From NCBI RefSeq assembly GCF_022201045.2, contig NC_068558.1, positions 2,232,001 to 2,296,000 of the forward strand: a DNA stretch of 64,000 bases, in the 5' to 3' direction. This DNA comes from Citrus sinensis. Taxonomy: Eukaryota; Streptophyta; Magnoliopsida; Sapindales; Rutaceae. Position numbers and translations under genes: made by a program. The notes under the pieces are model-generated. The model worked only from the letters and a program-made list of their open reading frames with translations. It searched no databases and was not told the origin of the DNA. How positions within the stretch are numbered: position 1 is the first letter of the stretch; each line of letters starts with the position of its first letter. Below are positions 16,966 through 61,853 of this stretch, piece after piece.

Positions 16966-17575
16966 ATTATTTTTGAGAGGTTCAAAAGTGATTTTGAAAA
17001 GTTAAAAACTAATTATACGGTTTGGAAATTTTTTTTATGAATTACTTTTTACAAAATCCCTCTATCATACAGCATATTTTAAAAAGTAGGGAAACAAAAT
17101 CTGATTTTAAAAATTATGTTTATATTTAATACAATTTCATATATATGCTCATATATATTATAAAAATTTAAAATTATCCTTATTAATTAAGAAATAAAAT
17201 CATTAACTTTAAAAATATTATTATTATTATTATTACTATATTGAGATAACAAAATAAAAAATAAAATTAATAATATGTATATTTTTTAGTTATCAATTAT
17301 TATTGTGTACAATAAAAAATATTTTATAAACATGTTTATACATATTAAACAAATTTTATTCTAACAATATATCAAATTCAGTTATTTATATTCCTAAACA
17401 GTTTAACAGTAAGATTTATCAAATACGTATTATTACTTTTAAAACTTATAACATTTTTTAAAATAAATTTGATCAAATATGTAATTAATTTTCTTTATAG
17501 TTGACTATTTCTACGATATAAGTAACAATAATTATTTTTAAAAATATAATATTATCAAACTGACCATTAAACTGA
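16966..17575. repeat. Diverged repeat copy A (miniature element-like, about 600 bp)
   Basis: Aligns by eye in direct orientation with 18205-18785. Shared landmarks in the same order are a GAGAGGTTCAAAAGTGATTTT-like start, the block AATAAAATCATTAACTTTA, a short ATT/TTA triplet run, TTTTAGTTATCAATTATTA, ATTTTATAAACAT, and CAGTAAGATTTATCAAATACG. It is non-coding and AT-rich. The GGATTACTTTTG...GGTTCAAAAG ends resemble common plant miniature hAT-type elements, but I could not define target duplications. Confidence 0.6.
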
Positions 17576-18204: not shown

Positions 18205-18785
18205 AATCCATTTGGGATTACTTTTGGAAGGTTCAAAAGTAATTTTAAAAATTAAAAGGTTGATTTTGATACTTGATAAATTTTTATAAAAATCACTCTA
18301 TTTTATGGAGATTTTGAAAAGTTGCATTTTTTCTACTTTGCACTTTTACACTTAGTATAATTTCCCATACATCCTCATACATATTATAAAACTCCAAAGT
18401 TATTCTTTTTAATTAGGAAATAAAATCATTAACTTTATAGAGATTATTATTATTACCAATTATATTCAAATAATAAAATAAGGAATAAAATTTGTAATAA
18501 TATAAAATATTTTTTTAGTTATCAATTATTACATGTACACTATAAACAAATATTTTATAAACATATTTATAGATGTTTAAATGAATTTTATTCAATAATA
18601 TATTTAATTAAGTCATTTACATTCTTACAGCAGTTTAATAGTAAGATTTACTAAATACGTATAATTGCTTTTAAAATTCATAGTACTTTTAAAAATAAAT
18701 TTACTGAATGTTTAAATAATTTGTTTCACATCTGATTATTTTTATAGCATAATTAACAAAAAATATTTTAATAATGCGCTGAGTA
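18205..18785. repeat. Diverged repeat copy B (partner of copy A)
   Basis: The second copy of the roughly 600-bp repeat, in the same orientation about 1.23 kb downstream, with the inverted-repeat element of 17811-18068 lying between the two. Divergence by eye is substantial, with many substitutions and small indels. The two copies are therefore old insertions of one family, or an old tandem duplication. Confidence 0.6.
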
Positions 18786-38941: not shown

Positions 38942-39455
38942 AGTACGTACTATCAGTAGAATCAGCTATGCTGGGATATTGCAATTGCTTGTGATTTCAT
39001 TAAAGTTTTATGTAATTTGCAAAGCTCCTATATTCCTCCTATTTAAAAAAATAATAAATAATAATGTAAAGAAGCTGAGGTGGATAACGAACCCGTAAAA
39101 GTAGGGGGAAGCCGAAAAGTAGCAAAAGCAAAAAACTTGACGAGAGAGAATGGAATCATTTTTCCATTGCAGTGCCACACACACTGCACAAAAAACATTC
39201 GCTTAAAATCTACAGCAACAACACCACCAAGTAAAAGATTAAAAGAGAAAAAAAAAAAAAGGAAAAATCAAAACACAGTAACGATACGAAATCAAATAAT
39301 AAAAACGCCAGCAAACAAAACAACAACAAATTCAATAAAGCGAAATCCGCCTCATTTCTCTCTCTCTCTTTCTCACCCGCTATCAACGCTGCCCACTCCG
39401 TGTCCAAAACCCAAAAACCCCCTCTCCCCTCACTTTCCGCTTCTAAAATGAGACC
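38942..39455 (+). promoter_or_regulatory. Proximal promoter and 5'UTR region of QUIRKY-type gene
   Basis: The DNA between the nested elements and the ATG. The last 100 bp is a pyrimidine-rich leader with a CTCTCT run near 39357-39372. AAAATAATAAATAATAATG-type AT-rich sequence near 39047-39066 is the only TATA-like region I could see; no specific site is assigned. Confidence 0.4.
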
Positions 39456-42400: not shown

Positions 42401-42551
42401 TACATTGGTACTCTATGTGGTGCCACCCAAGATGGTAGCCGTGGCATTGGGATTCTATTACTTGAGACACCCTATGTTTAGAGATCCCATGCCACCGGCT
42501 AGCTTGAATTTTTTCCGGCGGCTGCCGAGCTTATCGGACAGATTGATGTAA
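39456..42551 (+). CDS. QKY: QUIRKY, multiple C2 domain and transmembrane protein (MCTP15 type)
   Basis: A single-exon gene of 1031 codons. It aligns along its whole length with Arabidopsis QUIRKY, a plasmodesmal ER-to-plasma-membrane tether. QUIRKY works with the receptor-like kinase STRUBBELIG in tissue morphogenesis and belongs to the family of florigen-transport proteins (FTIP). Four C2 domains lie at about residues 14-145, 290-425, 445-595 and 615-750. A proline- and glutamine-rich linker fills about 155-285. The C-terminal phosphoribosyltransferase C-terminal-like domain (PRT_C, about 840-1031) carries hydrophobic spans, including TTVLVHVLYLVLVWYPDLIV and LFIGVCTVITLVLYVV. Hallmarks are KDGQGSSSPYV, EKKSVFSWIRGEIGL, HTRSKVYQSPKLWYLRVTV, GKGSTDAYCVAKYGKKWVRT and the terminal SLNFFRRLPSLSDRLM. 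The start ATG (context GACCATGAC) gives the family's usual short leader before the first C2 domain. No break was seen. Confidence 0.97.
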   Translation: MTTPSQPPPQQQFTVRKLVVEVVDARDLLPKDGQGSSSPYVIADFDGQRKRTSTKFRDLNPVWNEPLEFIVSDPKNMDCEELEIEVYNDKRYCNGSGRKNHFLGRVKLCGSQFARRGDEGLVYFPLEKKSVFSWIRGEIGLRIYYYDELSEEEHQHPPPPQDEPPPPQPPQQQPGVCVVEEGRVFEVPGGHVEVCHPVPEIYHGQPPPQAPIIEESQPHGVHVQPEPVQIPPHDEPIPTAVPAAEIRKMQSGCAERVNVLKRPNGDYSPKVINSSKPNGEVPTERIHPYDLVEPMMYLFVKIRKARGLVPNEAPYVKIRTSSHYRKSKLASYRACDPHDSPEWNQVFALFHNKNDSVSATLEITVWDSPTENFLGGVCFDLSDVPVRDPPDSPLAPQWYRLEGEASDQNNRVSGDIQLAVWIGTQADEAFPEAWSSDAPYVTHTRSKVYQSPKLWYLRVTVMEAQDLCIAHNLPPLTAPEIRVKAQLALQSARTRRGSMNNHSSSFHWHEDVFFVAAEPFEDSLILLVEDRTAKDAAAVILGHAVVPVSSIDQRIDERHVASKWFPLEGSCGRGCARSYCGRIQLKLCLEGGYHVLDEAAHVCSDFRPTAKQLWKPPVGILELGILGARGLLPMKTKNGGKGSTDAYCVAKYGKKWVRTRTITDCFDPRWNEQYTWQVYDPCTVLTVGVFDNWRMFADASEERPDYRIGKIRIRVSTLENNKVYTTSYPLLVLLRTGLKKMGEIELAVRFVCPSMLPETSSVYGQPLLPRMHYLRPLGVAQQEALRGAATKMVAAWLDRSEPPLGPEVVRYMLDADSHAWSMRKSKANWFRIVAVLAWAIGLAKWLHNIRRWKNPVTTVLVHVLYLVLVWYPDLIVPTGFLYVVLIGVWYYRFRPKIPSGMDTRLSQAETVDPDELDEEFDTIPSSKPPEIIRMRYDRLRMLAARVQTVLGDFATQGERVQALVSWRDPRATKLFIGVCTVITLVLYVVPPKMVAVALGFYYLRHPMFRDPMPPASLNFFRRLPSLSDRLM

Positions 42552-44124
42552 TAATAATAGAGAAGAGTTGAAGAGTAGATTCCATTCATTAGTTATTACT
42601 AGTTTTAAGGCACCAAAGTAAAAGTAAAATAGGGGAGGGAGTGGGTGGGGATGAGGGTTGAGGTTTTGTGTTGAAAAGTTGTCTCTTTATTTTTTTGGTT
42701 TTGGGGGGTTTATATTTCATATTTGAATTTGATTGACTGACTATTGAAGAAGAAAATTGAAATAAGAGAAAGGAGGTGGTGGGCACTGCCACTGGGACAG
42801 TTTGGAGGGTAAGAAAATTGAGTGCCCGGTTCTGTACGAGTGTGGCCGACCCCAGAAGAGAGAAGAGAGAAGAGATTGATGTAATGTAACGATGTCTCAG
42901 AAAGTGAAAAACATTCAATTCAATTGCTTTTCTAACACATATTGCTTAACACCTTTTCTTCAACCATATCTTTATTCATACCTGTGTCAATAATATATTA
43001 TTATTTCCAGCGTAAAGTGTAAAACTATAAATACAATTTTCACGATCGCAATCACAGGTCGCAGCAGTTCCGTATTTTTCAGTTTAGTTTCGGTACAGTT
43101 TCATAAAGTAAGGAGGTCCATTTGATTTGCGGGCAGGCATGGTGATGGGCTGGGCCCATAGCGTCGATCTGAAAATTTAGTCAAGCTGTATGGCCGGCAG
43201 CTGGCAGCTTTCAGCTTCTTTTTTAAGAATCTTTTCAGAAATTTTTGACTTTAAGAGCGAATTTGTTCGGGGGGTTTGTAAACAAACTAGCGATTTGGGT
43301 ACAAGGTCTAGTTTATCGACACATGTGGGTACCGGTGGGAAGTAACCTACAAATAAAAAATACATATTGACTTTTTTAGTTGGGTGGGATATAATAACCA
43401 CTCCACTTTTAAAAAATTTATATTATTTTTAATAATTTTAAATAAAGAAGAAATTTGAATAGTTAATAAATTAGATGGTTATTAAATATTTAAATTTATT
43501 GTACAAAACATAAGTTTGGACAATTTAGTTATTTTATATTAAAAGGGTAAATAATTTAAATTAAAAATATGTTAAAACAATATTAGTGACCAACAATGGC
43601 CAAGAGACTTATATAAAGAAAATTATTTAATTGATTAATTGTTTAAACAATTCTTTATATTAATTTTTTTAAAATAATGTGAAACTTTTTTTAAAAATGA
43701 CGTGGATTTACACTTATTGTGGGGAGTAGAAATATTCCCACCCTTTTCAGTTAGTCGACTTTTACATAAATGTGCATGTACAGTTTTTCTCTCTTGGCGA
43801 TTTGGTTTAACAAAGAGATAACAAAATTTGGGGATTAAAATTAGTATTGTCAAAAATCTTAATGATAGATTAAAGATTTTAATCTAGGTGGGGAAAATTG
43901 AAAACCCATATAATAATAATAATAATAATGTGAGGCTAAGCGTATGAAGTTGACACTGAGATTCAAAGTGACCAACAAAATAACTTCCGCTTGAACAAGT
44001 TTGGTCATGATCGTTGATTATTAAGTGTACTTATTATTGGAAAACAAATAAATAATAAATAAATAAGAACATCGAATTTGAGAATAAAAAGGAGGTTTTT
44101 ATTTAAATATGTTCCATTTGTTCT
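42552..44124. other. 3' flank of QUIRKY and intergenic DNA, no gene seen
   Basis: The first about 350 bp is GT-rich and is likely 3'UTR. The rest is AT-rich with an (AAT)n run near 43909-43930. No coding sequence is supported. Confidence 0.5.
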
Positions 44125-44717
44125 AAAATACCAAATTTATGCCCTATTATACATATACCTCATGAAAGTATAAAAAGTCAAAAATACCCTAAAAAGTCAT
44201 CTATCTATATTTTCTTCCTCTCTCATGGCTTCTACATAATAACATAACCAAAGTCGAGTATACTCGATTTTTTACCTGACTTAATTAAAAGGAAATTTTT
44301 CATTTTAATTTAAGTTGAGTATTCTCGACCAGTTACCAAACTTTCATGAAAAGTCGAGAAATTTTGTTGAATGAATATCGGCCAAGGTTAAATTAAGGTC
44401 GAGTATTCCCGACGCTTTACTCGATTTATGTGAAAAAGTCTAGAATTCTCCAAAAAAAAATTTTATTTCAATTGAAGTTGAGTATCTCGATTATTTACCC
44501 GACTCACATGAAGAAGTCCAGAATTTAAACTGAATTACTAATTGTACATGGTTTCGTTAAAATCGAGTATTTTCGACTATTTAACAGTCTTTGAGGATAT
44601 GAGTTCAGTTTTGTGAGGATTTAATTGAGATTATTTTTGTATTTTCAATGATTTTTTAAAGTATATATGTGTAACACATAAGAGTATTATAATTTAAGAC
44701 ATATATTAGGTATTTTG
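44125..44717. mobile_element. Short non-autonomous element with GTCGAGTA sub-terminal repeats
   Basis: About 590 bp. The ends are imperfect inverted repeats of the form AAATACC-AATTTATG; the same ends bound the 3.3-kb element at 50031-53321. Inside are repeated motifs of the type GTCGAGTATTC, ACTCGATT and TTACCCGACT, and the stretch AAAAGTCAAAAATACCCT...AAGTCATCTATC also occurs near 50079-50115. It is best read as a deletion derivative of the larger element. No clear target duplication was found. Confidence 0.6.
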
Positions 44718-44735: not shown

Positions 44736-45782
44736 TAAAGGTGGCCAGCAGGCCAGGCAGCATGTGGCACGGTACAGGCACGACATGTTTCGGCAAGGCA
44801 TATGGCACGGCACAACACACATGTGGGACGAGCCGGGCTCAGATTTTTGGGCACGTGGGCCTTAAAAGCACGGCACATAATAAGCACACTTTATTGGTGG
44901 GCTAGCACGCGGCTTATGGGCCATCAATAGCACGAGTGACAAAGTATATCAAAGGAAATTTTTTTAATAAAAAGTAAAAATAAAATGTTATGATTTTATA
45001 AATATTTTAAAATTAAAATTTTTAATATATTTTATTAAATTGATTTAAGTCTTAGTTTTAAAATAATTTAATTGTTTTATGTTTATCATTTATTAAATGA
45101 ATAAATAAATATAATAATTTTAATAAATAAAATTATAAATATCATAATTTTATAAATGATATTTCAAAATTTTACGAAAATTAATATTTCATTTATAAAA
45201 TCATAACTTAATTAATGGAGATATGTTTCATTTGTGAATAAATAATTTTCATATTTATACAAAAAAAATTATGAATGAAATATTTTTTATTTTTATGATA
45301 AATTAAAAGTTGCATCTTCATTCAATGGAGTTCAAGTCCAATTATAATATTAATTAATAGTTCAAATAAAATTAGGTGTAATTTGCTTCACTGCAGTTCA
45401 AATAATATTATTGTTTTGTAATTGAATTGGTAATTGTTAAATTAAACATTTAAATATATAATTGTGAAATTGTGATAAACTGATAATAAAATATTAATTG
45501 TTCTCTTAATAGTTAATAGAAATTATTATTATTGTTATTGTTGTTATTGAAAGATGGACTAATGGATTTGAAAAAATACGATAGACACGTGGGCTTAAGC
45601 AAAACACATCACGTATGGGAGTTTAAAAAAACATGTGAGTTTAAAAAAAAAATTGATGGGCCAAAAAAATGGGCTGGACATGGTACGGCCCATCAATTTG
45701 GTGGGCTGAGCATGGCCGTGCCGTGCCGGCCCGTGAATCCTCACAGGCCTTGGTTTGCCGACACGGCCATCGGCCACCTTTA
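44736..45782. mobile_element. Non-autonomous hAT-like element
   Basis: A 1047-bp element with terminal inverted repeats TAAAGGTGGCC / GGCCACCTTTA, followed on both sides by GC-rich sub-terminal sequence built from short CACGGC / GCCGTG and GGGCC / GGCCC motifs around an AT-rich core. The flanking 8-bp repeats GGTACATG (44728-44735) and GGCACATG (45783-45790) differ at one base. An 8-bp target duplication and this kind of end fit the hAT superfamily. It encodes no transposase. Confidence 0.78.
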
Positions 45783-45790
45783 GGCACATG

Positions 45791-46925
45791 CCAAGCAATT
45801 CCCCCAATAAAAAGGCCAAAGAAGAACGGATTTGGTATGACGTACATAAACAATCAATCAAAGCACATCGATCCCTGCTAATGCCTGCATCTGCAAGACT
45901 GCAACGACCTAAACGATTGAGATTCCAGGTCTGAAACTGTAGTCCCATTTAATTTTTCATCAATAAGATGAAGGATAATTCCCAATAATTTATGATCAAT
46001 CAAGCTTGCAGATGGTGATCTCCCTCCCGTCTGTCAAATAGAAGCAACTAGCATCATATACGATCAAATCAAGAGACATCTGACAAGTCCACATTTCATG
46101 TGTCAAAATATACGAAATTAATTACCCAAAAAGAAAAGAAGAATTTTTTATTGCTTTTGAGTTTTGACATAGTTATGGTTCTTCAGTAAAGAATCCAATA
46201 CTTTCCAGGCCTTTCTTGCATGATATTGCTCACAGGTGTATACCTAGTTCCCATGTTGGATTGATTATCGATTGGCTTCAAAAGAAAAACTTAATTTATG
46301 TGTAAAGAGTATGACAACAAATTAGCAAAAGTGCATCGAATTATTATTCAATTAATAAGTAACATGCGACCGCATTCTCGAACCAATTTGAGTACATGCC
46401 CTTTATTTTTATTTTTATTTTTGGAATATTTTGCTCGTACGGTCATACATAATGTATGCCTATAGCTATAACATACATAGGTTTGCTTATTATTAACTTG
46501 ATTTGTCTGATCTTTAATTTGTTTTATTCGCAGTAGTGGAGCCTCAATTAATACAAAAATCCAGTATCTGCTGTGTGTATTGGGTTAATTTTTAATATGG
46601 GAGATTCAGCACAAATAGAAAAAAAATCAATCATCGTGTCAAAAAAAGGCTCCCCGCTTGTCTTGTCTGTTCACTGATCCGAATATGATCAAAGCACGTA
46701 TATACGACTGCTTTTGTTGCTTGTGTGCTTGTTGCTCAAGTTCATGCTTAACAAAGATGGAGGTACAAATTTCAAGTTTTTTTTCCTCCAATTTCAGCAT
46801 ACAAGCTCGATGTGTGCGTGTCTGTGTGTGTATAGCCAAGCCTCGTGCATTTAGATTCTGCCCTCTGTACATTTTCAACTGAGAGTGAAGCTCACTTCTT
46901 GTTGTACATTTCTCTTTCTTTTTTT
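45791..46925. other. Intergenic DNA left of the duplicated block, no gene seen
   Basis: Nothing supported beyond short low-complexity frames. Confidence 0.5.
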
Positions 46926-47244
46926 TTCACCTTTTACAGTTCCATTTCCGGACTGGAATCAAATGACTTAAAAATCTTAAACTTTTCCCGTCTTTTTTTG
47001 GCCTAGCTCCTTATAGAGTCCCTTGTAATTTTAAAAAAAATTGATGTGTCTACAATGGGATGTGACAAAAAGTTATTAAACTTTTAATAGATTCTTGGAA
47101 ATTTCGCTTTATACTTAAGTACTGCATGAGGAAACTTCCTTTTTGACCCTTTCTATCCTCGCCCGATAATAAATCGCCTTGCCACCCAAATCACAATTTG
47201 TTAATAGAAAAGTTTTGAACTCCACTGTTCATAAGATTAAACAA

Positions 47245-48517
47245 ATGAGCAACAGTCCTGGTTTATATATTGATATTGGCAAAAAGGCCAGAGGTTAGTT
47301 ATGTCATCTTCGGTTCTTTAGAATGCTTATTTTTATTAATATACTGAACATTTTACGCTCATATTAATTAATCCTTGCTTGCTTGTTTCTATGCAAGATC
47401 TTCTCTACAAGGATTATGGCGATAAGCAACCAGCAAATCACTTCCGCTACGATTGCGTGGACAGCAATTTTGATGTTTCCTGTCAATGTAATTTATGATG
47501 GCAATGAAGTTTCTCTTTCAATATCTCTCTTGCCCTGTAATGATATCGTCAATTGAAATGCATTACCAATACATATTTGCTTCTTATCAATCCACATATT
47601 GTGGGTTGTTGCATTACGGAATTTACTCAGCTTTTTTGCTTCTCATAGCTGGACATTATCAACTTACGATCTTATTGAATATAATGATCTGAACTTTTAC
47701 AGGTGATGCTATTGTGCCTGGACTGAGTACAGCTTTTAGATCTATCATTCCTGATTCTGGCGGGGTAAATTTTCTCAACTTAATTCTATCAGAATTATTG
47801 TGTCTCAATGATTTTTCGTTTGGTGTGATGTTATATGTATTTGTACAATGCTTAACCACAGGTGGAACTGCGATACTTGCATGACTATGCTGGGTTTACT
47901 GCAGGCATTGGGTTGAAGGCAGGCCGCCATAACCACCTTCAGTCGGTAGGACTTGACCGCATTGTAAAGTTTTCGGTTGTCGCAGGAAACACTGTTCTTT
48001 CTCTTGGGACCGATGCAGCGTTTGACATATCAACAAGGACTTTCAGCAATTACAATGCTGGCTTGAGCTTCAACACTGCCTTGTTCAATGCTTCCGTGAA
48101 CTTGTAAGCAATCTTACGAGAATCAATTGGTTCATTTCCAATTTTTTTTATTGATTATCAACTAAGCTTTTCTAGTAATGCAGGAACGACAAGCTTGAAA
48201 ACTTAAGAGCTTCTTATTATCAAGAACTGGTCCCTCTGACCAGGACTGCCGTTGCAGCAGAGTTGAAGCATAGCTTTTCTAATCACAGGAGTATTTCCGA
48301 TAACATTCCCATTCCAACCAGCTTGACAGTTGGTTTCCAGCACGGGCTGTTTCCTTCTACATTGGTGAAGGTCCGTGTCAACACTAATGGCAAGGTGGGT
48401 GCTCATGTTCAGCAGTCCTTCTGGCAAAAGTTCTCTATAGCTGTTTCTGGAGAGACTGATATAAGGGCCTCAAGCTGGATTCCCAATGTAAGATTCGGTA
48501 TGGCATTCAGTTCCTAG
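47245..48517 (+). CDS. Short VDAC-type (mitochondrial porin family) protein
   Basis: Five exons: 47245-47293, 47398-47487, 47703-47764, 47862-48103 and 48184-48517. They give 777 nt, 258 residues, in continuous frame. Family features are the N-terminal helix MSNSPGLYIDIGKKARDLLY, then VELRYLHDYAGFTAGIGLK, FSNYNAGLSFNTALFNASV, LRASYYQELVPLTRTAVAAE, FPSTLVKVRVNTNGKVGAHV and VSGETDIRASSWIPNVRFGM. VDACs form the voltage-gated anion channel of the outer mitochondrial membrane. Compared with ordinary plant VDACs (about 275 residues), about 30 residues are missing between the N-terminal helix and the YLHDYAG strand. Exons 2-3 encode a divergent segment (NHFRYDCVDSNFDVSCQC) where beta strands 2-4 would be. 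The usual C-terminal lysine-proline is also absent. The neighbouring pseudogene has the same layout, so this is an inherited subfamily trait. Whether it forms a normal 19-strand pore is doubtful. Confidence 0.85.
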
Positions 48518-48916
48518 AATAAACTCCATCTCTAAGTCAGAAGATTACATTTATATCATTTATTAAATGTTGTACTAGATAAATGGGTGCCTTCATGTTT
48601 AAAATTTCAAGTGAACTGATGAGATGGTTTCTGCACAAGTATTTTGAGGAACTATGATTTGAACTCCGCATAATTTTTAAGACTGAGAAGTGAAAGTAGT
48701 TGGAAAATTGACAGATACAAGCATCTTTCATCAAGAACATTTCATATCTTGTTGAATGTCATGTGCCCAGTAACTGTGTTACATAACAATTAATGAACAA
48801 ATTGACAACCGTAATTAGCCAAGAACAGAACACGTGCAAACTTGACAATAAAACAATAATAATCGTACTTGTCTTAACACAAAACTATGTGAATCCAAAT
48901 AAAAGGTAACACGTCA
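48518..48916. other. Spacer between porin and HIR remnant, duplicated
   Basis: Aligns in patches with 57470-57832, the spacer between the dead porin and the live HIR gene. No gene. Confidence 0.6.
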
Positions 48917-49130
48917 CTGGTGTTGAGAAGCCTGCTACATCTCTAACAGCAGAATGTCCATGGGGAATAAAGACTGCAGAGGATGTAGAAGGGCCTCAAT
49001 TTCCTTCAAGGTGTCGAAGTTTAGTACCCAATACTTTATTGAGATCATCCTTTAAATACATCCTTTGCCGTGGTTCCTGGAGCACTGACAGAGAATCCCA
49101 GCACACTGTCGGTGGCGAGCAATACCACGC
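48917..49130 (-). pseudogene. HIR gene remnant (3' end of the last exon only)
   Basis: Matches the C-terminal coding end of the HIR gene at 57831-58189. Shared blocks on the + strand include ACTGGTGTTGAGA, GCTACATCTCTAAC, TCCATGGGGAATAAAGAC, CCTTTGCCGTGGTTCCTGGA and CCCAGCACACTGTC. Internal deletions and insertions break the frame, and nothing upstream of this (earlier exons) is found to the right. It encodes no usable protein. It shows that copy 1 of the segment once carried HIR too. Confidence 0.85.
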
Positions 49131-50030
49131 GTTAATTTCAGTCCACCGTAAATTTAATTTATTATGTCCGCTGGTTCGTGTGGGAGTCTTTTTATTCTCC
49201 TTTTGGTTTTAAATTTTAGTAGTGTTTGTAATTATATTTTGTGGTTAGGCATTGGCTTAATTTGCGCTTGAGTTTTAAATATTTTATAATATTTAAATTG
49301 AATATGATCTTATATTTATGTCTAAATGGCGATGTATTATTGGTTATTGTTTTTTTTTTTCGAGTAATACATGATATTACTTACATATACATATACATCA
49401 CCATCTATAAAATTTTATTGAGATCATGTATTTAAAAGACGAAGAATGACTAATAATATATCGCCGCCATAAAGACGTATTGGTATTTTCCTAAAAATAT
49501 CGTTTCCGCCATGCCTTTCTTTGGTTAATTGTGTTTGGCTGCTGCTGGTGGTGGCAAAATTGGAGGGAAAAGACGAACCATTTACTGCCAATTACACCTC
49601 TATCCATCATACCAACCGTCTTTAACTTTTATCTTTATGTTTGGCGTAGCCAGAATTAACCCATAGTCATTTAATAAATAAATTTAAACTTTTAATTAAA
49701 ATTACAGATTTACATTTTAGTTATTATACATAAAGTTTAATTTCCGATATATGTATATTTAACAAGATATTTTAGAAGCCATTGTTTCATAATTTAAATT
49801 TATTAAATATGTTATGAAATTATTTCTAAAATTGAATATTTCAAAACCTAATGTAGAAATAATTTCAAAAATTCTCTGATTACCAGAAAATTATTATCCC
49901 AAATAGATACAGACGTTCTCTTTGGTCTTTGGATCGGCGAGAAATTTGAAAACACGTCTTTTTATTCACTCAATCTTCACTCAGCCAGATAACATCATGT
50001 TTTTTATTTCAATTTTGCCTCATTTAGCCA
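49131..50030. other. AT-rich gap before the MuDR-type element
   Basis: No gene or clear repeat seen. Confidence 0.45.
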
Positions 50031-50489
50031 TAAATACTAAATATATACCCCATTACATTCATATGCCCCCACGGAGAAAAAAGTCAAAAATACCCTTAAA
50101 AAACCATCTATCAACATTTCCTTACCTCATCATTTTAGATACTTTCTCACTCCTCGCAATTCTTCCTTTCTTATGGTTTTCTCCCCTCTCATCAATTCAT
50201 CTCTTACCTCTAAAACAAATTTTTTTGATAAACATAAACTCTTGAAAAAAAAAAACCTTAAAAATATGTGCATTGTCAAATGGTGAATAAATTATGTTTG
50301 AAATATAAATATTTTGTATACTTACAGTTTGATTTGACTTTATTACAAGTAAATTTACTGATGATTTATGAATTTGTGATAGTAAATTATTCATTTCAGT
50401 CTAGCACACACACAGAGTACTGTATAAAATGTAGAATTTAAGACCAAACATTTAATTTAAGTTTTAGGATTGAAAAATGATTTCAGGAA

Positions 50490-51250
50490 CAGGTCGAGTA
50501 CAAAGTTGGGTAAGTCGAGTAAGAAATGGAGTAAAGGAGTTTATTAAGTCAAGCAAGGAAATCAAGTAAGTCGAGTATCTAGTCTTGTAAAAATTGTAAC
50601 TAATCAAGTAAGTATGATGTAAGTCGGGTAGAAAGTCGAGAAATATGTCGAATAATAGTAAGCTTAGTAGTAAAGTATAAGTCAAGTTAAGTCAAGTAAT
50701 TAGTCAAGTAGTATAGAATAATTTTGATAACTAGTGGAATAGGTCACTGAACAAATCGAGTAAAAGTCAAGTAAGTTTATGAATAAGTCAAGTATGAATC
50801 GAGTAAGTCTATTAAATAAGTTGGGTATTAATTTTAAGTTTTTTGAACATGTCGAGGAGCCGAGTGATTTTTTGAACAAGTTTACTAGTTGAGTAAACCC
50901 AAAGTAACTCTTTGAACAAAGTAAGAATTTTGATCACGTCAAGTAAAAGTCGCTACGTTGAGCAAATCTTTTAACCAAGTAAGTCTTTTGAAAAAGTCAA
51001 GTATTAATTATTTTAAGTTGTTTGAATAAGAGAAGTAAGTCTTTTGAACATGTCAAGTATGAGTCAAATAAGTCTTTTGAATAAGTCGAGTACAAAATGA
51101 AATAAATCTTTTGAACATGTTGAGTATTAACTATTTTAAATTGTTTGAACAAGTCAAATAAGTCTTTTGATCACATTGAATAAGAGTCGAGTAAGAAGGT
51201 CGAGTAAGTTATTTGAACAAGTTGAGTAAGTTAATTAAATAAGTGGAATA
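50490..51250. repeat. Degenerate GTCGAGTAAGTC / TTTTGAACAAGTC repeat array
   Basis: About 760 bp of irregular repeats built from AAGTCGAGTAAGT and CTTTTGAACAAGTC-like units, variable in spacing and quality. The GTCGAGTA core is also the sub-terminal motif of the element, so the array probably grew by slippage within its end. Confidence 0.8.
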
Positions 51251-52034
51251 AGTCTTGTAGTGTAATTTTATTCAACTATTTTAATAATTTTTTTGCTAAA
51301 ATTTTTTAATGATGACAGTGCCATCACTCATCAATGGCAATCGTACGTGTTCCCATCATTTTTAACAATGAATGGACTTAGGAAAATGATGGTTTTATTC
51401 CTGACCATTTTCGCAATGGAAATGAATCAGAACACAAACTTATCTCAACACTCAGGTTGACGTGGAAAACAAACCAATCGAGATCCATCTTCGTGTGGAG
51501 AACACAATACTACCGGATCATGAAGCACCAGCTGATAGTCTACTAGTGTTGACTGTGACCAGCCATGCTCTTGGAAGAACTATTTTCCAAGACAAAGTTT
51601 ACTTGATAGTACTAATTCAATTTGCATGAATGATTTATTCCTCATTGTCGACGATTTAGCATCAAACGAGGTTGGTGATGGCAGCAACAGATTTGTGGAA
51701 AGACAACAATTTTCTTTTAAAGAGATCTTGTGAGGCATGCTCAGTACATATGCTGTAACAAATAAATTTGGATATGAAAGTTTAAGTCTGGCAAGGATAA
51801 AATTTTCGTCACTTGCCTGGATAAAAACTGTAAACGGCATCTTCATGTCGTTAAGGTGAATGATTGTGGTATGTTGTCTTTAAAAGGTGGCATTGTGGAG
51901 TTTTTGGGTCATGTCTTGAGTGCTTGGAGTAAGTGAAAGACTATACTAAGTCACTGTATAAAGATTTCCTTACTGAAATTGTATACTGATGATTTTGCTA
52001 GTTGTTATGAGATGACATTATATTTATAGCATTA

Positions 52035-52768
52035 TTATTTCCCCCGAGTCAAACCCCGAAAATCCCACAAAACGACGTCATTTCATTTTGATCTTTTTCC
52101 TTTTAATTTCAGATGCAAGCGCTGTGTCGAGCAATCCGTTTCAATCCAAACGATGTTGTTCTCCTTCAATTCGTTTCAAAGCACATGACGTGTTCTCCTT
52201 CAATCTATTTCAAGCACATGAGTGCGAGCATATGCTTTGTTCTTCAATTTCCTTTCAACCACAACACTCCAATTACAAAACCTTAAGTACATAACTCCTA
52301 AATTGCAAAACCCCAACTAGTTCCTCAAAATTAAGTGCAGAACCCCTAAATTGCAAAACCCCAACTAGTTCCTCAAAGTTGAGTGCAGAACCCCTAAATT
52401 GCAAAACCCCAACTGGTTCTTCAAAGTTAGTTTCAATTTGTATTTGGGCTTTGGCATAAGGTAACGTATTGATTCCTCAATGTTTACTTTACTTGAATCT
52501 TGAGCTGGTTCGTGTGATGGTTGTGGTCCGTCATCTGTGGCTTGCGTGATGACTATGAGTTGTGAGCGACGACAATTGTGGCTGGAGAACTCGAGAAATG
52601 CTGAGATTGCAGATTTTGTGGTTGTGAAAGTTGATTCAAAATGGTTCGTTTAGGCTTCATCAAAATGAAAGGAAAAAAGTGTTAATTCCAAACGGTGTGT
52701 TTTCATTTTAATCAAAATGGTGAGTTTCAATTCGGGGCTTGAGTCGAGGCGCAAGTTGGGGGAAATAA
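52035..52768. mobile_element. Inverted-repeat insert within the MuDR-type element
   Basis: About 734 bp with inverted ends TTATTTCCCCC / GGGGGAAATAA, continued by the looser pairs CGAGTCAAACCCCGAA / GGGGCTTGAGTCGAG and ACGTCATTTCATTTTGAT / ATTTTAATCAAAATGGT. No transposase and no clear target duplication. It is probably a separate, younger, non-autonomous element, although an internal foldback of the host element is possible. Confidence 0.55.
52291..52437. repeat. 48-bp tandem repeat, three copies
   Basis: CCTAAATTGCAAAACCCCAA begins near 52297, 52345 and 52393, a period of 48 bp. The units are almost identical, so the expansion is recent. Non-coding. Confidence 0.9.
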
Positions 52769-53321
52769 CTTTTTCCTTATATTTAATGTTTGTTGGTTAA
52801 TTTATGGTTGTTGCAAATACTATTATTTTTTAATGCTTATTACATATCTTAAAAGATGATTACTTACTAAAGCTAAAGTCGCGTATTCTGGACTCATTAC
52901 CCGGCTTCTATGGAAAAGTCTCGAATTTTTTGAGAAATTTAATTGGTCGTGGTTCAATTAAATTCAAGTATACTTAACTCGTTATCCGACTTTCATGAAA
53001 GAAGTCGAGAATTTTTCAGTGGACTTAATTGATTATGGTTTAACTAAAGTCGAGTATACTCAACTCATTACTTAATTTGATTAAAGAAGTTAAGAATTTT
53101 TTTTCAGAGAACTTAATCATCGTGGTTCATTTTAAGTCGAGTATTCTTAACTTGTTATCTAACTTACATGAAAGAAGTTGAAAATATTGATCTTGCTCGA
53201 CTTCAAGATATCAGTTCAATTTTGTGAAGATTTAATTAAAAATATTTTCATATTTTTCCTTTTTTTAAGTATATATGTGAAAATTAAAGAGTGTAACAAT
53301 TGAAGCATATTTTGGGTATTA

Positions 53322-53879
53322 CTAATGAGCAACCACAAGAAAGAGAATATATCCCAAAAAAAAAAATATGGTGAAAGAAATTTTGAGAATAAAGTTGTGT
53401 GGCGAGTGGAGGAAGTCGGTTTGCGCCAGTTTCCCATCACTTGCTGTATAATTTTAAGTTGAAATAAGCGCACCAACTTTTGTTCATCAGTTTGTTGTAT
53501 TTACTATCTTTAGCTTCCCATTCTCTAATTTTAATGCCTTCAACACTTAACTTTTTTTTTTGGTTTTTATTTCCTTCTCTCTCTCAGGTCTTCTGTATAA
53601 AGATGACCTGGAACAATCCACCACTAACGGTAACTTTTTTACTTTTTAACAAATTACCAACACGAGCTCTTAGGAGTCTGCCAGTGATTTTCAATCATTT
53701 TTTTAGTCGTTCATCCGTGGTCTAATTTTGGAGAGACAGTGGCTTAAAAAATGAATTTAATCTTTCCTCACCCTACCTTCAAATCAAAAGAGTGAAAAAA
53801 TAAATATTGTCTTGTAGAATTTTATCTTTTTTTTTATATTGCCCTGTCAGATTTATGATTTTTCTGTTTGAAATTTTTT
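53322..53879. other. Gap between DNA transposon and LTR fossil
   Basis: No gene seen. Contains short poly-T tracts. Confidence 0.45.
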
Positions 53880-54694
53880 TGTTATAGCCCTTTGGAAACC
53901 AAAATCTTGGTCAGCTTATCTTTCATTTGTTGTGTGTATACTGTGGATGTGTTATGTTGAGTAACGAAAAGTACCAGCTCGACCATGTCCTCATCTTTCA
54001 CCCTGAGGCGAATCTCCTCAGTTGAATGGCACAAGTAGAGTCCTGGTAAAACACCGTGTACGGGCATGTACGAACTAGAAACGAGCACCAACCAGAGATA
54101 TGTATCGACCAGATGCTCATCACCCAAAGAAAAAGGACACGATCTCACGAAATCGCGACAGTTTCGCCATACCCCGAACCGCTGGGGAGAACATGACATC
54201 CCACGTCTACCCACAATTCGGTGGTTGGAGACCCATAAGGGTCTATCATCACCCGAAAATGGAGGGCATGGAGAAGACTCAGAAAACGTGGGATGACGGC
54301 TATAAGAAGCCAAGAGATCGATGAAGAAGGGAATATAAAAATTGAGGGTAAAGGGGAAACTTTGCCAAATTATTATCAGAAATTCTTATATCCAAATCCT
54401 TGAGATATTTCGTATTAAAAATATTGCAACTAATCTGTACAACACAAATCATACAAGTTTTCTCGTAAACACCTTGTGCTAACTTAAGTATCGGAGGGTT
54501 TACGCCGGCAAAACCACCGACGTCTCTGATCTGTTTCTGTGAACGCAGGGTTAGAGAGAAGAAAAAAGGTGATTTCAACCCAAGGAGCTTGAACAATTGC
54601 TGAAGCAGGCAAAGGGCAACATCTTCTTCATTGATCATATAAGCGTTGGTGGAACGATCTGGTCGGGCAAAGGGCGATCAGATTTCAGCATCAA
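53880..54694 (+). mobile_element. LTR-retrotransposon fossil, solo-LTR-like fragment
   Basis: About 0.8 kb ending in GCATCAACA, the same 3' terminus as the LTR fossil at 55769-56864. Both carry a CGGAGGGTTNNCGCCGG motif in their 3' part (here near 54491-54510), and a TATAAAA-type signal lies near 54336. The left limit (a TGTTATAG at about 53880) is uncertain and no target duplication was found. It has no recognisable gag or pol domain and looks broken. Superfamily unresolved. Confidence 0.6.
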
Positions 54695-55864
54695 CATGTT
54701 CAATATTCTTCGTTTCCAATTGTGAATGTTGATATATGCGGCAGCCCACAGAGGAGCCAAGTGTAGTGTCTTCGGCTCTCTATTACTTTTTCAGCGGAGA
54801 AACCCATTTCACATCTTGTTGGACATGTCTGTTATTTTTTACGTTTCATTTTCGGTCTGTGATCTAATGTCTTGAAACTTCTGTCAGCAAAGCTTAAAAT
54901 ACATCCATGGATGCTTGGAAATTTTGCTTTATAATTTATACACAAGTACCTCATCAGGAAGCTTCCTTTTCAGCCCTTTATATCCTTGCCTAATAAATTT
55001 ATTTTCACCCAATCCACAATATGTTGATAGAAAAGTTTTGAACATTGTTTATAAGTTTAAACTTCAAAATGAGCAAGAGTCCCGGTTTATACATTGATAT
55101 TGGCAAAATGGCCAGCTGTTAATATCCTTTTCTATTCTTTTATTGTCGTTATAACTTAAACAATTTGCACTCATATTAATTATTAGTCAATTAATATTTG
55201 CTTTTATCAACGTCAGATCTTCTCTACCAGGGTTATGGTCAGCAACCACCTAATCACTTTCGTAACGAATGTTTAAGCAGCAGCTTTGATATCTACTGTC
55301 GATGTAATTAGTCTGCATTTAATCTTTTATGATGACAATAAAGTTCCTCTTTCGGTGTCTCTTTTTCCTGTTTTAATATCCAATACACAATGCATTACCA
55401 ATACTTAAATTCAGTAATGCAACAACTATATCAATTTATGCATATTAAGAAGCATTGGCTCATGGTCATAGCTCGACTATATCAATTTATAATGTGGACT
55501 TCTAATCGATTATAATGATCTGAACTTCCACGGGTGATGATGTTGTGCCTGGATTGAGTCCAGCTTTCAGGTCCATGGACCATGATTCTGTCAGTGTAAG
55601 AAAATTATCTCTACTTAACCCTATCGGAAATTTCAATGATTTTTTTATTAGTGTAATGTTACATGCATGTACAATGCTTCATTCTTAGAAGAATGGTGAT
55701 TGTAATCAGGTGGAACTGCGATACATGCGCGACTACGCTGGGATTACTGCAGGCATAGGATTGAAGGTTGTTTAGAGAATGAAATAGGGTGACCAAGATA
55801 AAGGTGTTTGCTCATATATTATCGTGCTCTCCTCCAGAGTAAAAGCGAGCAAATAGTTGAGTAG

Positions 55865-56030
55865 ATCATCTCGATCAGGATGCTATTGGTCACCTCGACC
55901 AGAATAATATGTGGTCACCACGAGCACATCACCTCGACCAGGATGTTATTGGTCACCTCGACCAGAATAATATGTGGTGACCTCGAACACATCACCTCGA
56001 CCAGGATGTTATTGGTCACCTCGACCAAGA
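55865..56030. repeat. 63-bp minisatellite, about 2.6 copies
   Basis: ATCACCTCGACCAGGATGTT-type units start at 55865, 55928 and 55991, an exact 63-bp period, and each unit itself contains two CACCTCGACCAG motifs. It lies within the LTR fossil. Confidence 0.9.
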
Positions 56031-56477
56031 AGTTACCAGAAAGCACGATTCAGTCAAAACATTTTCTTCGAAATATTAGGGACCATATTCTTAGTGGGCT
56101 GAAAATTAGTTGTTTTCTTGAGAATCCTAGGGGAGAGGATAAAAACCGCTATAGTTTCTTATAAAAACCCTAAGAAGGGAGAGGAAATGGGGATTCTGCT
56201 AGCTCTCTCTCTCTCTCTAAGCAACTGAACCCATTGGACATTTTTCTCTCTCTACCACAGAGAAATTTCTCTTTCGCCTGTGATTTCTTTAAGATTGATT
56301 ATTTTGAATTCTTTTCCTTTAAATTTACTTAAAAGCTTTTTGTTTAAAGCAATCATAATTAAGCCACATGAATTGTGGTATGGGTTTTTCCAAGTAAGAC
56401 CCGAATCCCTGACTTGAGCGTCGGAGGGTTCTCGCCGGAAAAACTTCCGGCACCTCCTGACCGTTAGTTGTGTTCAC

Positions 56478-56772
56478 AGGCTCACAGGTTATCTGCTCAT
56501 GGATTGTCTGCTCATGGGTTATCTGCTCACGGATCGTTTGCTCATGGGTTATTTGCTCATGGATTGCCTGCTCATGAGTTCTCAGCTTATGGATCGTCTG
56601 CTCACGGGTTATCTGCTCATGGATTGCCTGCTAATGAGTTCTCTGCTCATGGATCGTCTGCTCATGGGTTATCTGCTCATGGGTTCTCTGCTCATGGATC
56701 GTCTGCTTATGGATTATCTGCTCATGGGTTTTCTGCTCATAGAACATCTACTCATAGAAAATCTGCTCATGG
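56478..56772. repeat. 15-bp minisatellite, about 20 copies
   Basis: Tandem CTGCTCATGGATTGT / CTGCTCATGGGTTAT units. Because 15 is a multiple of three, two forward frames stay open (one reads GLSAHGLSAHG-like), which is a by-product of the repeat and not evidence of a protein. Within the LTR fossil. Confidence 0.93.
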
Positions 56773-57830
56773 TGCTAACTAATCATCAGCTTCCCACCAA
56801 ACAAATTTAATGATGATGTAGGGATCTAAGATCTGACCAACTTATCCGGATTTCGGCATCAACAAAGGCAAACCACAATCCGGCTATAGGAGTAGGATTT
56901 GCACTTGACCCCATCATTAACTTTTTGGGTGTCATAGGAGATACTCTTCTCTCTATTGGGACCAATGTTGCCTTTGACGGATTAACAGGTACATTAAGCA
57001 ATTAAAATGCCGGTTTGAGCATCAACACTGCCTTCCTTGATGCTTCCTTGACCTTTTAAGCAATATATTACAAGAATTGACTGGTTTGTTCCCAATTGTA
57101 TTTATTGATTATCAACTAACCCTTTCCAATAATGCAGGAGTGAAAAACTTGAGATTTTAAGAGCTTCCTGCTATTTAGAACTGATCTCTCTGACTAGGAC
57201 TGCCATTGCAGCGGAGTTAAAGCATAGTTTTTCTAAAAATGGCAGTATTTCCGACGCCATTCCAACCACCTTGATAGTTGGTATCCAGCATGAGCTGTTT
57301 CCTTCTACACTGGTGAAGGCCCGTATCAACACTGATGGCAAGGAGCTACTGTTGTCTAGAAATCTGTCTGGCAAAGAATGTCGTTAGCTTTCCATGTAGA
57401 GACTGATTTTAGGGCCACAAGCTTGATGCCTAAGATAATTATAGCTCTGAGGTCCAGTTCTTAATCAGAAGATTACTGAAAATATGTACAAATTATCTCA
57501 CAACATTGATATGCACTACTTGATAAATGGGTGCTTTAACGTTGAAAATGTTAAGTGAATTGATGAGATAGTTTTTGCAAAAGCTGTTGAGGAATTATGA
57601 TTACTATAACCACGCATAATTTGTGGGACAAAGAAGCGAAAGTAGTCGGCCAATTGACAGATCTTTCAACAACCACTGGAAAGTCTTAAGCTCGGTAAGT
57701 TTGTTGCAATAAAACAAATTAAGGACCACAATTTGCCAAGAATAAAACAGAGCACATGGAAACTTCGGAATAGATCAAAATGAAAACTTGTCTTGATACC
57801 AAAACTAGATAAGCCTTATCAATTAACGAT

Positions 57831-59063
57831 TCACTGGTGTTGAGACGCCTGAAGAAGTCCATCACGGATCTGTGTCGCTACATCTCTAACGGCACCAGGT
57901 CCATGGGGAATAAAGACAGCAGATGATTTAGAAGCAGCTCCAATTTCCTTCATGGTGTCGAAGTATTGGGTGACCAGGACCATGTCCATCACATCCTTTG
58001 CCGTGGTTCCTGGAACGTTGATAGAAAAACCCAGCACACTGTCTCTCAAGCCATCCACAATTGCCTGTCGCTGCCGAGCAATACCAAGCCCTGACAGATA
58101 TTTAGACTCAGCCTCGCCTTCAGCTCGTTTGATCTGTAAAATTTTCTCTGCCTCTGCCTTCTCGTTAGCTGCCACCCTCAGTCTTGCAGCTGAGGGAGTA
58201 CAATAATAAGCAAGATAAGATTTGAAATGAAGTTTGATACTCATTTGAAGAGATGCTAGATACATTACCAGCATTAATTTCATTCATTGCCCGCTTGACA
58301 TGCTCATCAGGTTCTATATCGACAATAAGTGTTTGAACAATCTCATAGCCATAAGCAGACATAGCCTGTTAGGAAAAATAACACAGCATAACAGGAATAA
58401 TTTCCTATAACCTTCACAATAAACGGGATTAGCTTACAATACAACAAACATCTCTGCGCGACAATGTACATTACCTTTTCGAGCTCCTCCTCCACAGCTT
58501 TGGCAATTTCATTTTTTTGCTCAAATGCGTCATCTAGATTTAACTTTGGAATACCTGCCCTAATCACTGAACAATTTAACAGAAGATCATATATAGCATG
58601 TGAGTGATGCACTAAACATAAGTCTATAGTCTTAAACAAATATATATATTTTACCATCAAAGACATAGGCCTGAATTTGAGTCCTTGTGTTGCTGAGTTT
58701 ATAGAAAGCATCATCTGCCTTATGTGCCAGGGCACGGTATTGAACAGATGCAACAACATTGACAAATACATTGTCCTGGTAAATCACCATAAATTACAAT
58801 AAAATGAAATTGAAGAACATGATGACATGACCACCCAAGTAACTTGTACCGATAACGAGTAGTTATTAACAGACCTTAGTCTTGGTTTCACAACGAACAT
58901 CTAACTGCTGCAGCCTGAGTGTAAGGTGACCAGCTAGCTGATGTCCAAGGATCCATGGGAGGAAATGGCATCCAGGTTCAAGGACATCCTCAAACTTGCC
59001 AAATCTCTCCTTAATAGCCACTGTTGATTGGTCAACTTGTACGCAACAGAACAGATTCCCCAT
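57831..59063 (-). CDS. HIR1: Hypersensitive-induced response protein (HIR1-type, SPFH/band 7)
   Basis: Five coding exons on the minus strand: 59063-58875, 58775-58655, 58566-58475, 58365-58269 and 58189-57831. They total 858 nt, 285 residues, the family's normal length. HIR proteins sit on the inner face of the plasma membrane in microdomains, oligomerise, and associate with resistance proteins such as RPS2 in Arabidopsis. The N-terminus, [19 protein letters not shown], has a Gly2 myristoylation site followed by Cys6/Cys7, likely palmitoylated. The SPFH domain continues with [13 protein letters not shown] and [21 protein letters not shown] coiled-coil follows ([27 protein letters not shown]), then [19 protein letters not shown] and [20 protein letters not shown]. 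The porin pseudogene converges on it about 360 bp away. A leader intron upstream is possible but not resolved. No damage seen. Confidence 0.96.
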
Positions 59064-61024
59064 CTTCTTTACACTCTAATATGATAAAAATAAAAATGTA
59101 AAAAAAAAATTAAAAAAATTAAATCACTTAGAAACCAAAATGAATTCATGGTAAAAAGCTATCAGGGAAAGAAAACTTACAAATCAATGCAGAAACAAAA
59201 TGGTGAATGCAAATGCCGCTGTAGGAAGATATATAGTGATAGAAACAAACAACTAAATCAAGGGACTTAAATAGAAACAAAAGCTTGGCCTAGGAAACTT
59301 CTCCAAACTTTCTATGCGTTTTTTAGTTAAGTTAACAGCAAATTAAGGGAAGTCCTATTTCCTAGAAGATTTCACAATTTTCGGCCATAAATAGATATCA
59401 AAGTTAAATATGTGAACTGTAGCCACAAAGGACAGTGAAGACTCTAAGAAACTTTCCCATTTGAATGAACTTAATTGTATATTCAATTAAATGTACGACC
59501 ATTTTGATGACGATTCTTGTTTGCATTAATGTGTCAAGAGTGATGATAAGCCTCAAAATTAACGAAAATAGCAGGATGTTGCGTGTGTGTCAAGATACAA
59601 TCAAGGCAACAAGAAAGTGCCTGAAAAAAGTTAAAAGAGACTTGAGAATGTATAAATTGTGAAAAACTATTATTAGCCGTCTTAGCTAAGAAAAATAACA
59701 AACGGAATTCTTGCTTAATTCTGTTCTATCAACTTTTTTTCATTGCTAAAGTTACGAAGATCGAGAAATTACTGTGAGTTAATAATAGTTTTTTGTTGAT
59801 AGAATACCGGAAAACTGAAGATGCCTATCATTTGTTTATTTACTTATTTCATGTCATTATAATAAAGAATGTTTTAATTGAAAGGAAAGCTTGACAGAAA
59901 CCCACAATTGAAATAGAAATTGTAGGAGAAAGCAGAGGAAACTCCATCACCTTTTAATTCTTTGAAAGAGAGAGTCGGAATCTTGACTTTGAGGGTTAAG
60001 AAACGACTTAAATTTTAGGTGCCTATTTTTATAGTTTTATAAGTTTCCTGGAAATTCAGAGAAATAAATTCTACTAATCCAATATATGTCTAAAAAGATA
60101 TACCCTACTGAGTAAATATGTGGTGGGTCAAGAAATAAACTAAGCATCCAAGAAAGGAAAAGTAGTTATTGCCTTTCTTGGGAGTATGGAATGTGGTCAA
60201 AGTCATCATCCTCTCTTTCATTCATTCGCCGTGAGATCGGTCCACCCGCTTTAGAGCTGGTGTTGGCCTGGTTCAATTGTGCTCTGCCGCATAGTGGGAT
60301 TCACTTTTATTAAATCTTGAAACTTAAGACTTTAGGCTAGCTGATCTACTCATATTCACTAGGCTTAATCAAACTTCATTAAGCATAATGATGATGTATA
60401 AATACTAGAATTGGCATGGGGAGCAGCTGCGCGGTGGCAGCGCAGCTGCCCCAAACAGGTCCTAAGAATAAATTTAATTTTAATTGTAATTAGACAAATT
60501 GTTATTAAATTTAAAGTTACCAAACTTAATTACAATTTAAGTAAGTTCAACAACGATAATAAATATTAATATTTAATAAATGATAAATAATAACAACTCA
60601 TGAATTACAATACTTACATGCCTACACATATCAATTTTTATCTCCCTTGTACTGCCCATATTATCAAAATTGCAACATTTTTTCGATATGTGGGTTTTTT
60701 GGGCTTAAATTTTACGGAACGGAAGTGTCAGTTTGAGGAGGTGGTTTTAGGGTCCTAAGAGTTAAAAACCCCACGTAATGGCAAGTCATCTGCTGGATGG
60801 GCCTTCGAATGGACTGGACTTGTGGAACAGAAAGATCAGAACTTTTTAAACATTTAAAGAAGCTTGGTCACAGATTTCCCAGATAGAGCAATCAACAATT
60901 CGATTGGTGGATGTTATAATATTATAGGACTTAAGATTACAGTGGAATCCGACGTGGCAGTTGGCATCACCAAGAAAATTTACGAAGTTTGCTTCTGATT
61001 CTGAATCATCATCATCAGACATCA
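59064..61024. other. Intergenic DNA between HIR and RIQ-like genes
   Basis: No gene seen. Both flanking promoters must be here because the genes diverge. It includes a GC-rich hairpin near 60423-60450 in an otherwise AT-rich setting. Confidence 0.5.
60424..60449. repeat. GC-rich short inverted repeat
   Basis: CAGCTGCGC and GCGCAGCTG arms around GGTGGCA. It could be the end of a degraded miniature element or a chance hairpin; no other end or target duplication was found. Confidence 0.45.
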
Positions 61025-61853
61025 ATGACGGTCTCCGCACCAACTCCAGTTGCCCAGGTTCATACGATCGAGTGCAACAGCTTCCTCTCCTCAAAGCTAA
61101 AGCCTCGCTCTAACCGTCTGTTTCCCGCCAAAAATGTCTCAACAATAGTTGCCATGGCCTCCAGAAAGAAGGTAACTCGAAAATCTCAAGACTCTCTAAA
61201 AAAAATTTCATAATATTTTTTTCCGGCTGAGTCTGTATCAGTATGTGATAATCATACCAAAGTATCAAACACTCATAAATTTTCAATACTTTTTTTTTCC
61301 TTTTTCTTTCAGTGATTGAGTAAAAGATAAATAAATGGAAATGGGTTATGAATTACAGTTTTGTCAACTCCATTGAGTAATAAAAATAAAAAATTTGGAA
61401 AAATGACAGGTAAATAAATACGATGCTAACTGGGAGAAGCAATGGTTTGGGGCGGGAATATTCTGCGAAGGAAGCGAAGAAGTGGAAGTGGACATGTTCA
61501 AGAAACTGGAACAACGCAAAGTATTAAGCAACGTTGAAAAGGCGGGGCTCTTATCGAAAGCAGAGGAGCTAGGAGTCACTCTTTCATCCATTGAGAAGTT
61601 GGGTCTTTTTTCTAAAGCAGAGGAGTTGGGTTTGTTGAGTTTGTTGGAAAAGTTGGCCAGCGCTTCTCCCTCCACTCTTGCCTCCGCCTCGCTCCCCATA
61701 TTTCTGGCCGCTGTGGCCGCTGTTGTGGTGATTCCGGACGATTCTGTAACCTTGGTAGTGGTCCAGGCTGTGCTTGCTGCTGCTCTTGGAGTTGGTGCTG
61801 CTGGTTTGTTTGTTGGCTCCGTTGTCTTGGGTGGCTTGCAAGAAGCCGATTGA
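61025..61853 (+). CDS. Chloroplast DUF1118 protein, RIQ1/RIQ2-like
   Basis: Two exons, 61025-61171 and 61410-61853, 591 nt, 196 residues. Residues about 1-49 are Ser/Lys/Arg-rich without acidic residues apart from one Glu, a typical plastid transit peptide. The mature part starts VNKYDANWEKQWFGAGIFCEG. It has the repeated helical units LSNVEKAGLLSKAEELGVTL, SIEKLGLFSKAEELGL and LSLLEKLA. Two hydrophobic spans follow (LPIFLAAVAAVVVIP, about 138-153; VVVQAVLAAALGVGAAGLFVGSVVLG, about 160-186). This is the DUF1118 family, which in Arabidopsis includes RIQ1 and RIQ2, grana thylakoid proteins needed for normal light-harvesting complex II organisation and non-photochemical quenching. Its length is close to RIQ2. 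The paralogue assignment is inference. Confidence 0.88.

Follow-up and report, generated by a model that had tools for sequence, protein, structure and literature searches.

How does a duplicated pair of neighbouring genes come to leave one working copy of each, several kilobases apart? The question is raised by a 64,000-nucleotide stretch of the Citrus sinensis genome (C3:2232001-2296000; hereafter the window, whose own coordinates are used below), in which two segments in direct orientation each carry a VDAC-type porin gene on the plus strand and sequence of an HIR gene converging on it from the minus strand. The initial annotation read this layout as reciprocal loss, in which a complete porin-HIR pair was duplicated and each copy lost a different gene. 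Our analysis of a single assembly (299.7 Mb in 11 contigs) points to a different history. With a probability of roughly 0.77, as judged from the sequence, the first HIR copy was truncated at birth by a breakpoint inside the gene, during a partial tandem duplication, and the one complete gene copy lost is the porin of the second unit.

Two duplicated units in direct orientation

BLASTN identified two direct-orientation blocks, 47087-47919 against 54907-55767 (E 9e-99) and 47951-49110 against 56903-58043 (E 1e-165), and the alignment of the two copies is continuous across exons, introns, 3' spacer and HIR tail. The similarity previously judged by eye is thus present outside the exons as well. 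To the resulting scores we applied three controls, from the least to the most strict: shuffles of the whole region, local shuffles that keep AT-rich stretches, and real segments of the same contig. The copy-1 unit occupies 46834..49132 on the plus strand (about 2.3 kb; BLASTN, alignment, shuffle and real-segment controls) and the copy-2 unit 54755..58095 on the same strand (BLASTN, alignment and shuffle controls), the latter interrupted by a solo long terminal repeat (LTR). The left edge, 46834-46973 against 54755-54877, scores 36.7, a value that local shuffles (at most 19.8; 0/200) did not reach, and none of 568 real segments scored as high; leftward of 46834/54755 no similarity rose above local shuffles or real-segment controls. 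On the right the similarity ends at about 49132/58095, within HIR exon 5.

The copies differ at 22.9% of 767 exon sites, 28.0% of 464 intron sites, 31.9% of 361 sites in the 3' spacer, 19.2% of 151 sites in the 5' flank and 18.6% of 204 sites in the HIR remnant, doubtful columns of the remnant being counted in. Introns and spacer, which are of duplication age, show 67-81% identity when aligned, and the noncoding Kimura two-parameter distance between the copies is 0.355 (976 sites). Introns 3 (47765-47861; 20.5%) and 4 (48104-48183; 18.8%) diverge less than introns 1 (31.5%) and 2 (33.3%), for which gene conversion or chance are possible explanations.

Living and dead gene copies

The copy-1 porin (47245..48517, plus strand; exons 47245-47293, 47398-47487, 47703-47764, 47862-48103 and 48184-48517) is intact, as had been proposed. 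Its frame of 258 codons, giving 258 aa, is open, all four introns have GT-AG borders, and the protein scores 129.9 bits against Pfam Porin_3 (cut-off 28.4), covering positions 74-271 of the 271 of the profile. Equally intact is the HIR gene of copy 2 (57831..59063, minus strand; exons 59063-58875, 58775-58655, 58566-58475, 58365-58269 and 58189-57831), with five exons, GT-AG introns and 285 open codons (285 aa). It is a complete gene with a Band_7 domain (102.8 bits); Pfam gives Band_7 only, and the name HIR, which came with the initial annotation, is one that we presume to be right. On the branch of this gene the ratio of nonsynonymous to synonymous change (omega, or dN/dS) is 0.06 (likelihood ratio test, LRT, against 1 = 15.4). 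The two surviving genes, first placed about 9 kb apart, are separated by 9.3 kb from stop codon to stop codon.

The copy-2 porin (55069..57464, plus strand; traced by sequence and alignment with copy 1) is dead and split by an LTR, in agreement with the first description, and carries at least five disabling lesions, the solo LTR in exon 4 among them. On the plus strand the acceptor of exon 3 reads GG (55532-55533), exon 4 contains a TAA stop (57003-57005), the donor of intron 4 reads TT (57056-57057), and exon 5 has a frameshift caused by a 1-bp deletion near 57343 and a TAG stop (57357-57359). The LTR (55769..56864; 1096 bp), delimited by its TG...CA ends and by its family matches, is flanked by AAGGT and AAGGC, which are equal at 4/5 bases and were scored as a target-site duplication. 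The family has at least 73 matches in the genome, its own locus included (40 of 543 candidates were scored), and full-length matches span 67-70 to 1165-1169 of a query beginning at 55700. Among the matches listed, identity is 89% for the best full-length match elsewhere and up to 95% for shorter ones. The insertion is probably younger than the duplication.

Of the HIR gene, copy 1 retains a stub at 48914..49132 (minus strand), the 3' part of exon 5 including the stop codon, which measures 219 bp where about 210 bp of last exon had been reported. Relative to its counterpart it shows two 26-bp deletions, one 13-bp insertion and two smaller gaps, and a codon tree places it beside the window HIR gene. 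With its branch fixed at 0.177, which under a clock assumption is half of the noncoding distance of 0.355, the omega of the stub is 0.69 beside an HIR background of 0.047; among the seven values tested, those within 1.92 log-likelihood units of the best were 0.4, 0.7 and 1.0. When the branch is left free, omega is 0.40 (LRT against the background 16.2, against 1 = 2.1). These estimates rest on 62 usable codons of 119. The stub appears to have evolved near neutrality, which fits, without proving, death at birth.

A partial duplication, with HIR probably truncated at birth

The locus combines homology that ends inside a gene, copied introns, direct orientation and close proximity, as expected of partial tandem duplicates. 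We propose that the starting point was an old porin-HIR pair in convergent orientation, from which a local, direct (tandem-type) duplication copied about 2.3 kb of DNA. Its left breakpoint would lie about 0.4 kb before the porin ATG and its right one within HIR exon 5. This single step would have yielded a porin with an HIR 3' stub, followed by a porin with the complete HIR gene, and the stub would have been functionless from birth. Transposable elements would afterwards have pushed the units apart, while the second porin accumulated its at least five disabling changes, the exon-4 LTR included, and selection continued to act on the copy-1 porin and on the original HIR gene. Because a breakpoint inside HIR explains the layout, a second working HIR gene and its loss become unnecessary. 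We infer that homology stops on the right where the original breakpoint lay, and likewise the order of events. The idea of a complete pair behind each segment holds for the porin, which is found in both, and finds no support for HIR, whose homology ends inside exon 5. The kind of event is an ordinary one that is well preserved here: a partial tandem duplication, one gene copy lost, and later repeats.

Several observations weigh against this reading. The units are not adjacent, since they are separated by a gap of 5.6 kb in which 634 bp of single-copy DNA are unexplained, and dispersed repeats start only 57 bp past the stub, so near that a later insertion with a deletion cutting HIR is possible. 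Under whole-region shuffles the DNA after the stub shows a weak likeness to the remainder of HIR (score 21.0, as high in 2/200, or in 7/200 for a slightly shorter pair), and counts of 2/200 were also obtained for the DNA after the stub against the DNA upstream of HIR and for 53321-53952 against the HIR remainder. The free-branch omega of the stub leaves room for a period of constraint before truncation. Finally, the omega of the copy-1 porin estimated with no clock (0.54, LRT against 1 = 0.5) is indistinguishable from 1.

The DNA between the units (49133..54754, about 5.6 kb) was examined by repeat and genome searches. Pieces of dispersed repeats lie at about 49189-49351 and 49754-49866. They are followed by a transposable element at about 50000-53320, which encloses a nested repeat (52028-52776), by the single-copy stretch (53321-53954; 634 bp) and by a further solo LTR at about 53955-54696. 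With 5.6 kb lying between the units, the duplication junction is unreadable. Copy 1 could be an inserted (dispersed) partial copy, in which case 53321-53954 would have stood upstream of the copy-2 porin from the start and HIR would again be partial from birth, an explanation suggested by the width of the gap and its single-copy portion. We consider it unlikely: direct orientation and nearness are the outcome of tandem duplication, and the transposable element and the inter-unit LTR fill about 4.1 kb of the gap.

Further candidate similarities were rejected. The resemblance of 44096-44714 to 50001-53320, considered as part of the duplication, is that of a transposable-element family, of which 44096-44714 is a short and 50000-53320 a long member with ends in common. 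A stretch resembling porin exon 2 at 53588-53632 (LLYKD behind a splice-acceptor-like AG) did not exceed shuffles at the DNA level. Two pairs that would have extended the duplicated unit, 44993-45191 with 49669-49867 (whole-region shuffles 0/200, local shuffles 104/200, real segments 21/131) and 49677-49822 with 60467-60607 (2/200, 9/200 and 10/48), were not accepted as homology because they failed the local-shuffle and real-segment controls.

Reciprocal loss in the full sense, with a complete pair duplicated, the copy-1 HIR deleted into exon 5 and the copy-2 porin dying, is improbable in our judgement. It agrees with the present gene content, and it is favoured by the free-branch omega of the stub, which lies between constraint and neutrality, by the repeats close to the stub end and by the weak HIR likeness of the gap DNA under the least strict control. 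It would, however, require an additional deletion of HIR exons 1-4 and beyond, with no trace above the real-segment controls, and the near-neutral fixed-branch omega of the stub also speaks against it. The DNA after the stub matches HIR exons 1-4 no better than 27/200 local shuffles and 51/106 real contig segments, so that the decay of a full second HIR gene finds no support. Against the DNA upstream of HIR the same region was equalled by 9/200 local shuffles and 10/48 real segments. For 53321-53952, the HIR remainder gave 7/200 local shuffles and 20/106 real segments, and the HIR upstream DNA 44/200 whole-region shuffles and 17/48 real segments. DNA of the same age aligns easily under the same procedure: the 5' flank scores 82.0 (real segments as high 0/733), the spacer 117.7 (0/320), the stub 92.0 (0/546) and intron 2 61.1 (0/510). 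Moreover, within the window a tblastn search with the whole HIR protein matched the stub and the intact gene only. We read these results as no homology to HIR exons 1-4 or flank in the DNA beyond the stub.

Chance resemblance or an independent origin of the half pairs, for example by retroposition, can be dismissed, since the E values extend across introns and spacer, the identical intron positions in both copies exclude retroposition, and a genome search with 46400-49131 gave, besides itself and the second copy, two short matches on C6.

The copy-1 porin as a divergent VDAC

The dN/dS comparison suggested in the initial annotation gave a value below 1 for HIR, and for the copy-1 porin the value was distinguishable from 1 only under the clock (0.43, versus 0.54 with no clock). 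With no clock the copy-2 porin has an omega of 0.45 (LRT against 1 = 3.3), the values of the two porins are alike (LRT 0.04), and neutrality of both together is rejected (LRT 12.0, 2 degrees of freedom). With the branches fixed at 0.177, omega is 0.43 for copy 1 (LRT against 1 = 18.3) and 0.80 for copy 2 (LRT against 1 = 2.1), a marginal difference (LRT 3.7). In a simulation of neutral decay of the copy-1 porin, using the noncoding indel rate, frame and splice sites survived in 10/4000 runs at t 0.08, 0/4000 at t 0.14 and 0/4000 at t 0.19; when stops and splice sites alone were considered, 5.2%, 0.45% and 0.1% stayed intact. As an open frame with its splice sites is improbable under neutral decay, the copy-1 porin has probably been held by selection, less strictly than ordinary VDACs, whose background omega is 0.07. 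On the stem branch to both porin copies omega is 0.39-0.40.

The structure of the gene is unusual. It lacks the canonical third exon present in the VDACs on C4, C6 and C7, its protein shows two gaps near the N-terminus, of 28 and 8 residues (36 in total), when aligned with the C6 and C4 VDACs, and further on there are two insertions (11 and 9 residues) relative to those of C4, C6 and C7; the C9 VDAC model in the comparison is without its first exon. A sequence search of the PDB matched none of its entries to the copy-1 porin at E 0.01, and the C6 VDAC matched 12 distinct VDAC chain sequences at nearly full length. Because the dead copy-2 porin shares the five-exon layout, the loss of the canonical exon predates the duplication. 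The copy-1 gene might be a long-kept, non-canonical VDAC paralogue under purifying selection, perhaps with a smaller or altered barrel and a different job, a proposal that we put forward tentatively. That the protein is functional is likewise inferred.

Porin-HIR pairs elsewhere in the genome and age of the duplication

A genome search with Porin_3 listed 10 matches, which fall at five loci, on C3, C4, C6, C7 and C9; the list does not include the dead copy 2. A search with HIR exon 5 listed the window itself, a pair of sites on C6, one site on C4 and a more distant site on C9, five in all, and here it is the stub that is absent. On both C4 and C6 an HIR gene and a VDAC gene are convergent, with a kinase-like gene beyond HIR, and the order kinase-like, HIR, VDAC is identical in the 38.5 kb compared around each locus ('kinase' being our reading of the sequence, not the result of a family search). 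The convergent arrangement is therefore older than the split of the C3, C4 and C6 loci. We take Arabidopsis VDAC1 (At3g01280), HIR2 (At3g01290) and a kinase (At3g01300) to lie in a row as well. A literature search found no paper on At3g01280 and At3g01290 together, and none of the top-ranked open-licence papers was titled as dealing with a tandem duplication of porin and HIR. An origin of the three Citrus loci in an old polyploidy is only likely.

In these comparisons a pectate-lyase match between the window and C6 covers 43 residues (97 columns in the wider comparison of C4 and C6 with C3). Kinase pieces of C4 and C6 that match C3 at 39-52% identity, 98.7-99.5 kb along and thus outside the window, were judged to belong to a different kinase and set aside, since the kinases of C4 and C6 are 77-92% alike in most pieces; matches of 25-35 residues from C4 and C6 to C3 at 17.9, 71 and 76 kb on the scale of the window were set aside as repeat-like. 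At C6:25054371-25059702 two tandem HIR genes lie beside the VDAC gene, one starting with MGQ, like the C4 HIR, and the other with MGN, like the window HIR.

Window HIR and C6 HIR are separated by a neutral distance of about 1.3 over the whole gene and 1.6 over exon 5, compared with 0.355 between the tandem copies, so that the tandem duplication is about one quarter as old as the HIR split. The core-eudicot triplication is about 120 million years old; if the loci stem from it, the tandem duplication would be roughly 30 million years old. Lineage incompatibility, which had been raised as a possible consequence of reciprocal decay, is weakened by the four other VDAC loci, the four other HIR genes and the age of the duplication. 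As both genes have open-frame paralogues on C4 and C6 and the events are old, such incompatibility is unlikely in this genome.

The porin-HIR region is flanked by a gene with C2 and PRT_C domains (39447-42551) and by a DUF1118 gene (61407-61853), whose Arabidopsis counterparts (At1g74720 and At1g74730) are presumably direct neighbours. Elsewhere in the window there is a separate direct repeat, 17119-17538 with 18345-18769, at 79% identity over 429 columns.

Comparison with known systems

The locus illustrates that the apparent reciprocal decay of a duplicated pair can arise in one step through an intragenic breakpoint. Where reciprocal losses are counted in single genomes, truncation at birth should be tested for. 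The locus also points to a divergent, exon-reduced VDAC that is seemingly kept by selection.

In a study of partial gene duplicates (Katju 2012, PMC3449122), the shorter paralogue is described as truncated, with no homology past the intragenic breakpoint. Such duplicates are reported to be common; in mutation-accumulation lines of C. elegans, for instance, they made up 63% of the spontaneous duplications that could be detected. The HIR stub is likewise truncated, with homology that stops inside the gene. Unlike those duplicates, the partial HIR accompanied a complete porin copy, and what is ancestral and what is derived is proposed here from one assembly. Divergent resolution, as treated for Mimulus (PMC5896889) and rice (PMC5555463), concerns duplicate loci whose losses come together in interspecific hybrids. 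The window shares with these cases duplicates at two positions and copies with lost function, and differs from them in having one complete copy lost, the porin, in a single assembly. The window porin belongs to the Porin_3 family like other plant VDACs, and its N-terminus and later exon borders are common with the VDACs of this genome. Most grape VDAC members are described as six-exon genes (PMC8242593), whereas the window porin has five exons and lacks the canonical third.

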